Shown piece after piece: positions 59,804 to 64,000 of a DNA stretch of 64,000 nucleotides; positions within the stretch are counted from its first letter, which is position 1, and each line of letters starts with the position of its first letter. The DNA is from Pseudomonas sp. MM211 (GTDB lineage: Bacteria; Pseudomonadota; Gammaproteobacteria; Pseudomonadales; Pseudomonadaceae): positions 868,001 through 932,000 of the forward strand of contig NZ_CP081942.1 of the NCBI RefSeq assembly GCF_020386635.1, given 5' to 3'. Under the pieces are notes generated by a model. It searched no databases, had not been told where the DNA came from, and saw only the letters and a list, made by a program, of their open reading frames with translations. The translations under genes were made by a program, and so were the position numbers.

Positions 59804-60529
59804 CTAGACACCATTGGTCAGCAACGCCTGCCAGAGCGCTTCGGGTTCGGTGAACTCGCGATCCACCGCGGACAACGAGGGTCGCTGCAACACCAGCACC
59901 GGCAAGCCACGCTCACGGGCGACCTGCAGCTTGTGCTCGGTGGCGGCGCTGCCACTGTTCTTGCTCACCAGCACATCGCAATCGAGGCGTTCGAACAGCG
60001 CGCGCTCATCGTCCAGGCTGAACGGCCCTCGGGCGCCGATCACTTCGGCACGGGGCGTGGCAGGCTGGCTCTGCAGGCAGCGCACCGTCCAGTGCTGGTG
60101 GGCGGGAATCTCGTGCAGATGCTCCAGTGGCTCGCGGCCGAGGGTGAACAGCGGGCGCTGAAAGTCGTCGAGTGCGGCGATCAGGCTCGGCCAGTCGAAC
60201 ACCTCGCGCCAGTCATCCTCGGGCGAGGCCTGCCAGCCCGGACGACGCAGCGCCCAGCAGGCGATCCCGGCCTGTCGCGCGGCGCGGGCGGCGTTGTAGC
60301 TGATCTGCGCGGCATAGGGATGGGTGGCGTCGACCAGCAGATCGATGCCCTGCTTGTGGATAAACTCAGCCAGCCCCTCGGCACCACCAAAGCCACCGAC
60401 GCGCACCTGACAAGCCAGGTCTTCCGGCACCTTGCCCAACCCGGCCAGGCTGTAGACATGCGCGGGGCCGAGGCGTCGGGCGAGGTTCAGCGCTTCGCCG
60501 ATCCCGCCCAGTAGCAGGATGCGGCTCAT
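59804..60529 (-). CDS. cobK: Precorrin-6A reductase
   Basis: A 241-residue CobK/CbiJ family protein. It begins [21 protein letters not shown] (nucleotide-binding strand) and has the family markers [37 protein letters not shown] and [34 protein letters not shown]. It reduces the macrocycle of precorrin-6A with NADPH in aerobic cobalamin synthesis. The start at 60529 overlaps the cobL stop by 4 bases (ATGA); the longer in-frame start at 60730 lies wholly within cobL and is rejected. Confidence 0.92.
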
Positions 60530-61731
60530 AACGGCTTGCTGACCTGCAGCAGGGTGATCGGCAACGCGGCGCGCCAGGTGTCGAAACTGCCAAGCGGGCG
60601 CGCCTGGGCCACTTCGATACGGGTCAGCTCGCCGCCCTGGTCGCCACGAAAGGCGATCAACGCCGCCTCGCTCTGCAGGGTCACGGCGTTGGCCACCAGC
60701 CGACCACCGGGCTTGAGCGCGCGCCAGCAACTTTCCAGCACGCCGGGCGCGGTCACCCCGCCACCGATGAAGATGGCGTCTGGCGCCGCCAGCCCGGCCA
60801 GCGCCTCGGGTGCCCGCCCGGCCACCAGTTGCAGGCCCGGCACGCCAAGGGCATCGCGGTTGTGGGCGATGTGCTCCTGACGGCCTTCGTCAGCCTCGAT
60901 GGCGATGGCCCGGCAAGCGGGATGTGCGCGCAGCCATTCGATGCCGATGGAGCCGCAACCAGCTCCCACGTCCCACAGCAGTTCGCCGGGCAGCGGCGCC
61001 AGACGCGCCAGGGTGATGGCGCGCACATCGCGCTTGGTCAGTTGTCCGTCATGGCGATAGGCATCGTCCGGCAGGCCCGGCGTGAGCGGCAGGCGCCTGG
61101 CGTCATCACCGGCCACGCAGTCGATCGCCACCAGGTTCAGATCAGCAGATCGAGCCAGCGACCAGCCATCAGCCAGGCCATCGATACGCCGCTCGCGCTC
61201 ACCGCCTAGGTGTTCGAATACGCTCAACCGACTGGGGCCGAAACCACGCTCGCGCAGCAATGCGGCAATGGCCGCCGGGCTCTCGCCATCGTTGCTCAGC
61301 ACCAGCAGGCGTACGCCGGGATGAACCTGCGCATTGAGCGCTGCCAACGGGCGGCCGACCAGCGAGACCAGGGCTGTGCTCTGCAGTGGCCAGCCAAGGC
61401 GAGCCGCCGCCAGCGAGCAGGAGGAAGGCGCCGGCAGAATATGCAGCTCATCGCTCGGCAGCTCGCGGGCCAGGCTGGCGCCAACGCCGAAGAACATCGG
61501 GTCACCGCTGGCCAGCACGCAAACCGGCGTGCCGCGGCGCTCCAGCACCGGCGCCAGGGAAAACGGCTTCGGCCAGTGCAGGCGCGTGGCGCGGATGCAG
61601 TGCGGCAACAGTGCCAGTTGGCGCTCGCTACCGAACACCTGCTCGGCGGCCAGCAACGCATGCCGCGCCGCCTTGCCGAGGCCTGCATAGCCGTCTTCAC
61701 CAATGCCCACGACGGTCAGCCAGGGTGTCAT
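60526..61731 (-). CDS. cobL: Precorrin-6Y C5,15-methyltransferase (decarboxylating), CbiE-CbiT fusion
   Basis: A 401-residue fusion. Residues about 4-200 are a CbiE-type tetrapyrrole methylase ([38 protein letters not shown]). Residues about 210-395 are a CbiT-type methyltransferase with the SAM motif [21 protein letters not shown] and [33 protein letters not shown]. The enzyme methylates C5 and C15 of the corrin ring and removes the C12 acetate carboxyl. It starts the minus-strand cob cluster, with GAGGAAA 6 bases before the ATG, and is divergent from cobG. Confidence 0.94.
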
Positions 61732-62025
61732 GCGTCTTTCCTCAATTGTCAGAACTACCCGTACTCATTAGCCATGAAGGCACCAGCGTGCTTTCTGTAG
61801 GGTGGATCGGGACGCGCAGTCAACGCTCTTGTCCACCTTTGCAACGCTGGGGCGGTGGACGGATCGGGCCGCGTAGGCAAGCGTCGTTCACCCTACGTCT
61901 ACGGGGCAAAAATAGCCTTTGCATTCTCATGCCAAAACGAAAGTGATCTTCGCTCTGCTTCGTATCCGACGACGCGGCTTTTCATCCGGGCGGGCAAAGC
62001 GGGCATAATAGCGCCTCTGTCGGTG
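61732..62025. other. Divergent intergenic region before the cobG riboswitch
   Basis: About 290 bases between cobL and the riboswitch. It holds the promoter of cobL, the inverted repeat at 61797-61897, and upstream of the riboswitch GCATAATAGC, a possible -10 region for the cobG transcript. No gene is evident. Confidence 0.5.
61797..61897. repeat. Dispersed inverted repeat, GTAGGGTGGATCGGG type
   Basis: GTAGGGTGGATCGGGACGCG at the left end; CGTAGGCAAGCGTCGTTCACCCTACG at the right, with internal GTCCACC and GGTGGAC. A long imperfect palindrome of a known kind in Pseudomonas intergenic DNA. Confidence 0.7.
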
Positions 62026-62330
62026 TCCGTCGGCTACGTGGTACGTAGGCGCGGGCCTAAGAGGGAACACGATATAAAACGTGTTCAATATCTAGCGAGC
62101 TAGAGCCATGCAAGGCAGAAAGGGGCGAGAAAGCGGAGTTTACGACTGTAAATGAGCATTTCGAGTCGCTTTCTAACGCAGCAGGGCCGACGCGCAGCAG
62201 ATATTGAGCAGGTTTTCAGCCGTGGCTGCCCCCGCAACTGTAGCAGCGAGCGCATGTGCCAATCGCCACTGGGAAACCGGGAAGGCCGGTCACGCGCCAT
62301 GACCTGCGAGCCAGGAGACCTGCCGACGGA
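62026..62330 (+). ncRNA. Cobalamin riboswitch upstream of cobG, aptamer interrupted by an insertion
   Basis: The 3' part has class markers of the cobalamin aptamer: GCTGCCCCCGCAACTGTAGC (62225-62244), CCACTGGGAAACCGGGAAGG and the B12 box GCCAGGAGACCTGCC (62310-62324). The 5' part has GAGGGAACACG ending at 62071. P1 is closed by TCCGTCGGC (62026-62034) and GCCGACGGA (62322-62330), 9 perfect pairs, which ties both halves into one RNA. CACG and CGTG, the P4 arms, flank a 141-bp insertion (62076-62216). Downstream, CACACCGGGCGGGGTGTTCCGGTG (about 62349-62372) may be the expression platform, whose G-rich loop could pair with the CCCCCGC loop. It should repress cobG when cobalamin is abundant, if still functional. 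Confidence 0.85.
62076..62216. mobile_element. 141-bp MITE-like element inserted in the cobalamin riboswitch
   Basis: Terminal inverted repeats AAAACGTGTTCAATATCT (62076-62093) and AGATATTGAGCAGGTTTT (62199-62216) match at 16 of 18 positions. Internally GAAAGCG and CGCTTTC pair around TTTACGACTGTAAA, so the whole element can fold. It has no coding capacity. I see no clear target-site duplication. Similar short repeats are, from memory, common in Pseudomonas intergenic DNA; no second copy is in this window. Confidence 0.7.
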
Positions 62331-62437
62331 TTCAGTCGCATGTGCCCACACCGGGCGGGGTGTTCCGGTGATAGAAGCTCGTCCTTCTCTGGCCTATCCT
62401 CGAACGGATGCCCATGTGACCCGACCCCGGTGATCCG

Positions 62438-63793
62438 TTGAAACAGGCTTTTTGCATTCCATCCCCTGCTGTTCGCCCCTCGGCCTGTCCGGGGTTGCTG
62501 CGTATCGTGCAGGCGAAGGATGGCGGCATCTGCCGGATCAAGCTGGCCTGCGGGCGCCTCGATGCCACCGGAGCCGAGCGCATAGCCCAGGCCGCACAAC
62601 GCCATGCAGGCGGCGTGATCGAAGCCACCAACCGCGCCAACCTGCAGATTCGCGGCATCCACGCCGGCAGTGAAGACGCATTGATCGGCGAGCTGCTGGC
62701 CGCCGGCCTCGGCCCGCGCTCACCCGCTGCCGACGATGTGCGCAACCTGATGGTCAGCCCTGCGGCTGGCCTCGACCCGGCGGCGCTGGTCGACGTGTCG
62801 CCACTGGCCGCACGCCTGCTGACGACCCTGGAGAACACTCCGCGCCTGCACGCGCTGTCGGCCAAGTTCGCCCTGCTGCTCGATGGCGGCGAACGCCTGG
62901 CCATGCTCGAACACCCTCACGATATCTGGCTCAGCGCCCTGCCGCTGGAGGGCCACATCGGCTATGCGTTCGGTCTCGCCGGTTGCCCGCCACAAGCGCC
63001 TGGCGATGTGCCCGCGCTGGCCGTGGTGCCCGAGGCCCATGCCGATGAGCTGCTGCTGGCGCTGCTCGACCTGTTTCTTGAACTGGCCACGCCCGAGCAG
63101 ACACGCATGCGCCACCTGCTGGTCAGCCACCCGGCCGCCGAGCTGCTGCAGCGCCTGAAGGAGCGCCTGGGTGACGTGCTGCTGGGCGCGGATGACTGGC
63201 GACGCAGCCCGGCGGAGTCCCAGGCCCATATCGGTATCGGCGGCCAGCGCCAGCCTGGCCGCGTGTATGTCGGCGGCGTCCCTCCATTGGGCCGCCTCGA
63301 CGCCGAACAGCTGCTTGGGCTCGCCGCTCTGGCTAGGCGTCTGGGCGATGGCAGCCTGCGCATGACGCCCTGGCAGAGCGTGTTGCTGCCCAATGTTACC
63401 GAGGCCGATGCACAGGCAGCCCTCCAGGCGCTGGAGGGGCTCGGCCTGTTGGTCGACGCCGATGCGCCGCTGACACGGGTGATCGCCTGTACCGGCTCGA
63501 GCGGTTGTGCCAAAGGCCTGGCCGATACCAAGGCCGATGCCCGCCGCCTGGCCGAGATGCTGAAGACCCGCAGCCGGCTGGCGGGTATTCATCTCAGCGG
63601 CTGCAGCCGCTCCTGCGCCGCCGCTCACCCTGCGCCGGTGACCCTGCTGGCGGTAGCCGAGGGCCGCTACGACCTGTTCGCCCGCCAGGCGGACAGCACG
63701 AATTTCGGCGAGCCACTGGCCCGCCACCTGACACTCGACGAAGCCAGCGAGCTGCTGGCCTCGCTTCCCGATACCTGGAGTTTCACCCGATGA
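62438..63793 (+). CDS. cobG: Precorrin-3B synthase
   Basis: A 451-residue protein of the nitrite/sulfite-reductase fold. It has RPSACPGLLRIVQAKDGGICRIKL near the N-terminus, NRANLQIRGI, and the C-terminal [4Fe-4S]/siroheme-like cysteine set in ACTGSSGCAKGLADT and LSGCSRSCAAAHPAPVTLL. CobG uses O2 to convert precorrin-3A to precorrin-3B in the aerobic cobalamin route. The only in-frame start upstream of the conserved region is TTG at 62438, 107 bases after the riboswitch aptamer; a weak start under riboswitch control is plausible. The stop overlaps the cobH start by 4 bases. Confidence 0.92.
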   Translation: MKQAFCIPSPAVRPSACPGLLRIVQAKDGGICRIKLACGRLDATGAERIAQAAQRHAGGVIEATNRANLQIRGIHAGSEDALIGELLAAGLGPRSPAADDVRNLMVSPAAGLDPAALVDVSPLAARLLTTLENTPRLHALSAKFALLLDGGERLAMLEHPHDIWLSALPLEGHIGYAFGLAGCPPQAPGDVPALAVVPEAHADELLLALLDLFLELATPEQTRMRHLLVSHPAAELLQRLKERLGDVLLGADDWRRSPAESQAHIGIGGQRQPGRVYVGGVPPLGRLDAEQLLGLAALARRLGDGSLRMTPWQSVLLPNVTEADAQAALQALEGLGLLVDADAPLTRVIACTGSSGCAKGLADTKADARRLAEMLKTRSRLAGIHLSGCSRSCAAAHPAPVTLLAVAEGRYDLFARQADSTNFGEPLARHLTLDEASELLASLPDTWSFTR

Positions 63794-64000
63794 CCGATTA
63801 CATCCGCGATGGTCAGGAGATCTATCGCCATTCCTTCTCCATCATCCGCGCCGAGGCCGACCTGAGCGCTATTCCGGCGGATCTCGAGAAGCTCGCGGTG
63901 CGGGTCATCCACGCTTGCGGCATGGTCGATGTGGTGCAGGATCTGCGCTTTTCCGCGGGTGCCGGTGCAGCCGGTCGCCAGGCCCTGGCCAATGGCGCGG
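63790..64000 (+). CDS. cobH: Precorrin-8X methylmutase, N-terminal part
   Basis: The window ends after the first 70 codons. They read MTDYIRDGQEIYRHSFSIIRAEADLSAIP, then LEKLAVRVIHACGMVDVVQDLRFSAGAG, the CobH/CbiC N-terminus with the catalytic-histidine segment RVIHACGM. The enzyme moves the C11 methyl group to C12 to give hydrogenobyrinate. It overlaps cobG by ATGA, so the two are cotranscribed and share the riboswitch. Confidence 0.92.
   Translation, partial: MTDYIRDGQEIYRHSFSIIRAEADLSAIPADLEKLAVRVIHACGMVDVVQDLRFSAGAGAAGRQALANGA

Follow-up and report, generated by a model that had tools for sequence, protein, structure and literature searches.

Riboswitch aptamers are known to carry and tolerate variable stem-loop insertions, and in AdoCbl riboswitches a T-loop occurs in the P4 loop, where it is at times interrupted by a helix, as set out in sections of the survey by Barrick and Breaker (2007; PMC2258182). 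No word beginning with "transpos" appears in the main text of that paper. A repeat neighbouring riboswitches is described, in the relevant part of Croucher et al (2011; PMC3049150), for the pneumococcal trp locus, where a BOX element lies between two T-box riboswitches. One section of a review further puts forward the speculation that MITEs within mRNAs could serve as riboswitches or terminators (PMC10969869), and the pertinent description of the Pseudomonas fluorescens intergenic repeat R178 gives it a size of 101 bp and internal 11-bp inverted repeats (PMC2718517). Searches of an open-access library, which covers few subscription papers, brought up no description of an aptamer with a MITE in it.

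Here we analyzed a window of 64,000 nucleotides from Pseudomonas sp. MM211 (NZ_CP081942.1, positions 868,001 to 932,000 of the forward strand), in which a cobalamin aptamer upstream of cobG contains such an element in its P4 loop. In our assessment, the switch likely still works, with the MITE-derived element as an extension of its P4.

The cobG leader and its aptamer

The RF00174 model matches positions 62004-62341 of the plus strand end to end (model positions 1-189) with 101.0 bits against a gathering threshold of 31.5, and 142 unmodelled bases fall within the P4 loop of this match. The original prediction of a cobalamin aptamer interrupted in its P4 loop by a 141-bp element is thereby borne out: the element (62076-62216) lies between the P4 arms CACG and CGTG, also named in that prediction, which we located at 62068-62071 and 62221-62224 by the Rfam alignment. 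The arms are separated by 149 nt, 141 of which belong to the MITE-like element.

Upstream of P4, the Rfam alignment places the P1 5' strand at 62017-62024, the P2 arm with its variable loop at 62025-62058, and the core AAGAGGGAA, which comprises the P3 5' strand and junction and is conserved in relatives, at 62059-62067. Downstream of P4 follow P5/L5, P6, the P7-P11 arm, and the B12 box (62225-62321), all strongly conserved across relatives, and the P1 3' strand (62322-62330, the pairing extent judged by eye). Just 5' of the aptamer, a -10-like box, CATAAT (62004-62009, plus strand), is identical in the window and, as judged by eye, in 13/13 aligned close relatives and may mark a promoter; a consensus scan of 61900-62500 returned neither a sigma-70 promoter nor an intrinsic terminator-like site. 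On the 3' side, a probable P13/L13 hairpin (62349-62370, plus strand) was recognized by eye from its stem CACCGG/CCGGUG, and relatives keep this hairpin barring single changes. Also by eye, the L5 sequence CCCCGC (62230-62235) is complementary to GCGGGG (62355-62360) in the L13-like loop, with conservation across relatives, and we take the 62349-62370 loop to pair with L5 in a kissing-loop role (L5-L13).

The assignment of P1 itself needs revision. The original prediction had formed this helix from 62026-62034 and 62322-62330, which are indeed complementary, but Rfam pairs 62017-62024 with 62322 onward and assigns the 62026-62034 segment to P2; the segment is not conserved in relatives. In the straminea/argentinensis group it reads CCCAGCGGC, and its helix with 62322-62330 is lost, while the Rfam P1 is retained with one mismatch (alignments by eye).

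The end of the RF00174 match lies 97 bases 5' of the start of cobG, which places the riboswitch in the leader of a B12 gene. cobG (62438-63793, plus strand) encodes precorrin-3B synthase in an intact ORF with a putative TTG start (TIGR02435 equivalog, 392.5 bits versus a cut-off of 234.8). It is followed on the same strand by cobH, encoding precorrin-8X methylmutase (63790-63999), which is cut by the window end and reaches 102.7 bits with NF006136 over 70 residues, below the whole-protein cut-off of 276. Divergently oriented on the minus strand is a cobL-like gene for a CbiE/CbiT fused methyltransferase (60526-61731; TIGR02467 and TIGR02469 above cut-off).

The inserted element and its history

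By anatomy, the insert at 62076-62216 (plus strand) is a MITE: it is short, non-coding, and multicopy, has terminal inverted repeats, and belongs to a family with TNA duplications. Its identification draws on the copies in the same genome, the family termini, the TNA duplications, and a tree of MITE copies. An inverted-repeat search recovered the 18-base terminal repeats that had been predicted, at 62076-62093 and 62199-62216, with 89% complementarity; in the fold they form the outer stem of the P4 extension. A BLAST query with the window element yields 42 matches, some of them partial, within the 5.28-Mb genome that carries it; of 199 Pseudomonas genomes sampled, 145 have matches, and a second family member used as query finds matches in 278 of 398 genomes. 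Many of the BLAST matches cover element positions 18-125. As judged by eye, the family core is conserved, and the outer arms vary between copies yet remain largely complementary within each copy.

GARCCTG...CAGGYTC are the usual ends of full family copies, several of which are flanked by TNA target duplications, such as TCA (L004), TTA (L152), TAA (L003), and TGA (L016), all read by eye. The duplication of the window copy is no longer intact; judging from the other copies, TCA at its right end (62216-62218, plus strand) may be a remnant, the matching left copy being gone. We take the TNA duplications to be reminiscent of IS5-family elements. A terminal-pattern search of the same genome gave 44 matches (6 in the control), with facing pairs approximately 130-245 bp apart and none at insertion-sequence distance, and revealed no autonomous parent of the family. 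No Rfam family matched the element itself at the gathering threshold or, within 61900-62500, at E-values up to 1, and the sole weak additional match, TLS-PK6 (17.6 bits; gathering threshold 44), lies on the other strand and outside the element.

To follow the element across species, we surveyed 80 cobG loci of named genomes, in 48 of which P4 was readable. Five of these readable leaders have a MITE-derived P4 (P. punonensis, Pseudomonas sp. URMO17WK12:I2, P. argentinensis, sp. PA27(2017), and sp. G34), and three further carriers were found in genomes G393 (L172), G381 (L174), and G397 (L175). Including the window, all nine carriers have the element at the same P4 site, either in full or shortened, with P4 lengths of 171, 170, 170, 157, 155, 155, 92, 91, and 42 nt, the 157-nt P4 being that of the window. 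A short P4 is present in P. daroniae, P. flavescens, P. seleniipraecipitans, and P. straminea (25 nt) and in P. dryadis (24 nt). These five element-free relatives have intact aptamers with scores of 102.4-117.8 bits, the opposite of the absence that had been proposed as evidence against an interrupted riboswitch.

The riboswitch copies share a common ancestry. In a tree of 64 MITE copies, eight of them form one clade with a support of 99/98; a few bases of host sequence remain at either end of the tree rows and may aid this grouping, and L175 was omitted as too short. The riboswitch copies also have AAAA.../...TTT ends, unlike most other family copies, which have AGARC/GYTCT. Since the riboswitch copies form one clade, the simplest history is a single old insertion, in which one copy of this genus-wide MITE entered the P4 loop in the ancestry of the P. 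flavescens/P. straminea group, with later shortening along at least two lineages. In the cobG tree, the window is sister to P. flavescens (96/96), and its closest relatives P. flavescens, P. daroniae, and P. seleniipraecipitans are without the element. This distribution could instead reflect at least two independent insertions of the same MITE family at the same P4 site, one in the window lineage and one in the straminea group, but the single clade, even with any help from host bases, and the common ends make such a coincidence very improbable. Under a single insertion, the short P4 of the sister P. flavescens implies that the element was lost or exchanged in sister lines.

Later shortening can be traced in several alleles. 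The 42-nt P4 of L175 is a clear MITE remnant, and in the cobG tree this locus is sister to the full carrier L068 (100/100). L070 and L174 have one deletion junction in common and group together in the MITE tree (100/96) but not in the cobG tree, so that an exchange of leaders or a tree error is likely. The 25-nt alleles have CACGAG and CCG-like flanks in common with the MITE alleles and may be strongly shortened MITE remnants; possibly, they are instead pre-insertion alleles that were retained or swapped between species.

Folding and constraint of the extended switch

The insert together with the P4 arms folds with -63.4 kcal/mol, compared with -40.0 +/- 3.4 kcal/mol in 200 shuffles (z -6.9; 0 shuffles as low), and in 9/9 carriers P4 and insert fold as a single hairpin closed by the P4 arms. 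When whole leaders are folded, the minimum free energy structure contains all four P4 pairs in six of the nine carriers, including the window, and in two of five short-P4 relatives. The corresponding P4 pair probabilities are 0.89-0.94 in the window and range from 0.08 (L070) to 0.95 among carriers, which makes thermodynamic folding of the whole leader weak evidence on P4 formation in either direction.

A specific concern of the original prediction was that the insertion could abolish a T-loop contact of P4. A T-loop in L4 is a feature of many RF00174 members that the model does not demand. The motif GGTG(C/A)...A(N)TCC occurs in 0/48 readable cobG leaders (of 80 loci), other T-loop spellings having been judged by eye only, and by eye the P4 of the window has no T-loop; the concern is therefore probably inapplicable. 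Elsewhere in the same genome, two of the four other readable P4 regions appear T-loop-like by eye (a fifth switch, L275, was left out of this count). The cobG subtype thus seems not to need the T-loop contact, and this would account for the acceptance of a large element in its P4 loop.

The two T-loop-like cases in the same genome have peculiarities of their own. In L274, a cobalamin riboswitch, the T-loop-like P4 loop is split by a helix. The locus L273 comprises two cobalamin riboswitch matches arranged head to head approximately 70 bases apart (G000:C1:1070955-1071156 on the minus strand and 1071228-1071407 on the plus strand), one with a T-loop-like P4 and the other with a short cobG-type P4; the T-loop-like P4 loop on the minus strand reads GGTTCGAGTCC.

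The aptamer sequence has been kept in the presence of the element. Among six full carriers, mean pairwise differences are 0.076 in the 5' half, 0.030 in the 3' half, 0.105 in the MITE, and 0.265 at third positions of cobG. The values for all nine carriers are 0.056 (5' half), 0.026 (3' half), and 0.249 (cobG third positions), and those for four short-P4 relatives are 0.164, 0.037, and 0.333. Relative to third positions, the 3' half thus shows ratios of 0.11, 0.10, and 0.11 in the three groups, and the 5' half, which contains the variable P2, ratios of 0.29, 0.22, and 0.49. The B12 box, L5 loop, and L13-like hairpin are all retained in the alignment of relatives, and the only change private to the window in the 3' half among 13 rows is a C to T in a variable arm (by eye). 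Had switching been lost in the lineage of the window alone, the loss would have occurred too recently to be visible. With the leaders of element-free relatives as a score comparison for the effect of the insert, RF00174 scores are 90.8-104.1 bits in the nine carriers, 102.4-105.3 bits in the four short-P4 relatives, and 117.8 bits in P. dryadis, the mean of the carriers lying somewhat below that of the short-P4 relatives.

These observations bear on whether the insertion disables the switch, through misfolding or a lost P4 contact, and leaves cobG-cobH constitutive. Such a loss would fit the 149 nt that now lie between the P4 arms, the ambiguous full-leader folds of some carriers, and their slightly lower Rfam scores. 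It is nonetheless unlikely, as the relative constraint on the 3' half is equal with and without the element over a span of 0.265 mean cobG third-position difference, the B12 box, L5, and L13 persist, and the searched T-loop motif is absent from all 48 readable cobG leaders. The kept constraint, the Rfam scores, and the retained L5 loop and L13-like hairpin, though from a small and related sample, form our chief indication that the aptamer has stayed functional despite its interruption. The original prediction had left the choice between a disabled switch and one in which the insert is folded out as a large P4 extension; given the constraint, the hairpins in all carriers, the covariation described below, and the single clade, the folded-out form fits better and the disabled form less so.

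We examined covariation in an alignment of eight carriers, using 57 pairs from the fold of L172, one of the aligned sequences. Across these pairs and carriers, 93.9% of cells are paired. Seven pairs are changed on both sides, compared with a shuffle mean of 3.7 (2/500 as high) and 0-3 in slid controls; further pair types number 11 versus 9.1 in shuffles, 39/500 of which reach 11. Because the two arms of an inverted repeat can be corrected against one another when the DNA is copied, the rows are related, and the structure was derived from one of them, the covariation favours selection on the helix without proving it. A still less probable reading than a disabled switch is that the element was recruited, its hairpin tuning the switch through folding order, RNase or Rho entry, or ligand affinity and being itself under selection. 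The maintained pairing with its seven doubly changed pairs, the presence of the element in nine species, and the lower divergence of the MITE than of cobG third positions (0.105 versus 0.265) might suit a recruited hairpin, but deletions within the element have left P4s of 92, 91, and 42 nt, and sister species have 25-nt P4s, which suggests that the body is dispensable. Since shortened alleles exist, the body of the element indeed looks dispensable.

We therefore favour a working switch with a MITE-derived P4 extension, for which the following course of events can be proposed. The locus would be an ordinary cobalamin riboswitch of cobG-cobH, in whose subtype the P4 apical loop is a tolerant position. 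As an inverted repeat, the element would fold back on itself once transcribed, into a long hairpin stacked on P4. Neither the binding core and P1 nor the B12 box and the L5-L13 contact would be disturbed, so that the switch would most likely still sense the cofactor and repress cobG. This repression by cobalamin would probably be translational, via L5-L13. Insertions into the core would be purged by selection, while one into a peripheral loop would cost the fold little because the MITE brings its own helix. Subsequently, the extension would have drifted, gained compensatory changes, and been shortened repeatedly, always leaving a hairpin.

Related insertions and comparison with known systems

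Insertions of the same family are present in other cobalamin riboswitches. We searched 30 and 28 genomes, picked as MITE-rich, with RF00174; the 30-genome search covered best matches only, and the 28-genome search gave 113 matches, of which 56, all scoring at most 100.5 bits, were fetched and 57 higher-scoring ones left out. MITE-family matches (BLAST) occur in 20 of 73 fetched loci, which comprise 13 chosen for length, overlap, or interest, the 56 from the 28-genome search, and four extras; two of the 20 (L210 and L211) are window-clade alleles already counted. Within the 56, a MITE-family match lies within or beside the aptamer in 12. As the surveyed genomes were chosen for being MITE-rich, these counts give no frequency, and switches whose MITE interrupts an essential strand would score below the Rfam threshold and escape the survey.

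Placed by eye, the insertions fall into ten types, the window's included, and loci of one type may or may not share an event. In P4, they comprise the window clade and an inverted copy in another switch, with TTA adjoining both ends and complementary flanks (L200). On the P2 side, the element occupies the P2 loop (L071, L247), the P2 loop in inverted orientation (L258), the stretch between P2 and the core (L205, L207, L232, L238), or the same stretch in a switch of different sequence (L252, L261). The remaining types are located in the P6 loop (L201), the P6 loop of another subtype (L202, L256, L259, L260), the P7-P11 arm, inverted (L255), and 5' of P6 (L267, L268). L206 was kept outside the ten types, its placement not being confident. 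For the insertions on the P2 side, the MITE follows the 5' strand of P1; a script counted 8-9 contiguous P1 pairs in L205, L207, L232, L238, L247, and L258 and 3-4 in L071, L252, and L261, in which P1 is present by eye with one mismatch. Loci found with Rfam exceed the threshold by construction, and L267 and L268 do so barely (33.5 and 33.4 bits).

Several loci show additional features. The leaders L202, L256, L259, and L260 contain, besides the MITE in the P6 loop, a different palindromic GCGGGAATCCAGAATCTCAGTA-like insert on the P2 side; L202 and L259 are cobG leaders, and L256 and L260 were assigned to cobG by likeness. In L232 (reverse strand), a further stretch of unrelated sequence splits the MITE that lies between P2 and the core. 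Small palindromic inserts with GAGCC-like ends, possibly heavily deleted MITEs, are present in the P7-P11 arm and P6 loop of L203 and L204 (minus strands), and in the cobG leader of P. otitidis an inverted MITE-family match lies just upstream of the aptamer region (L103:1581-1698). Scanning 20 MITE loci for other RNA families revealed one case, in the window's own genome, of a MITE within an rne-II leader (L016:1393-1802; RF01756, 189.7 bits), with the element at 1501-1635 and TGA on both sides.

The original prediction considered a mobile element inside a riboswitch core unusual; the element inside the aptamer is real, but its rarity should be qualified, since comparable insertions occur in several further cobalamin switches across Pseudomonas. 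We propose tolerance rather than targeting, since by a back-of-envelope estimate random intergenic insertion could give several such cases. Insertions of the same kind at several arms suggest that such elements are a source of optional riboswitch arms. Taken further, and held tentatively as somewhat short of an even case, MITEs may be a general and recurrent source of variable riboswitch arms, with the peripheral loops of Pseudomonas cobalamin riboswitches (P2, P2-P3 junction, P4, P6, and P7-P11) acting as safe landing sites: being self-complementary, a MITE would arrive as a ready-made helix, the switch would survive, and internal deletions would leave a lineage-specific extension of hidden origin. 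The origin of variable insertions in riboswitches is seldom seen, and here both the donor family and sister copies are available. Related species provide a natural allele series from 171 to 42 nt with MITE sequence and 25 nt without it. Together with the similar events at other arms, it forms a natural map of where an RNA tolerates insertions and supplies an allele set for probing the modularity of the switch.

Like RF00174 members in general, the window leader has the core, the B12 box, helices P1-P7, and, farther 3', an L13-like hairpin; it differs in the 149 nt between its P4 arms, 141 of them MITE, and in a P4 without a T-loop motif. Compared with the variable insertions described in sections of Barrick and Breaker (2007; PMC2258182), its insertion has a mobile element as its source, with sister copies, target duplications, and a history. 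The window element may correspond to R178, which, as far as the description in part of PMC2718517 allows a comparison, resembles its conserved core in size. The BOX element of the pneumococcal trp locus, in the part of Croucher et al (2011; PMC3049150) that describes it, likewise resembles a MITE and is transcribed together with riboswitches that presumably still function, but it lies between two riboswitches, whereas the MITE of the window lies inside a single aptamer.
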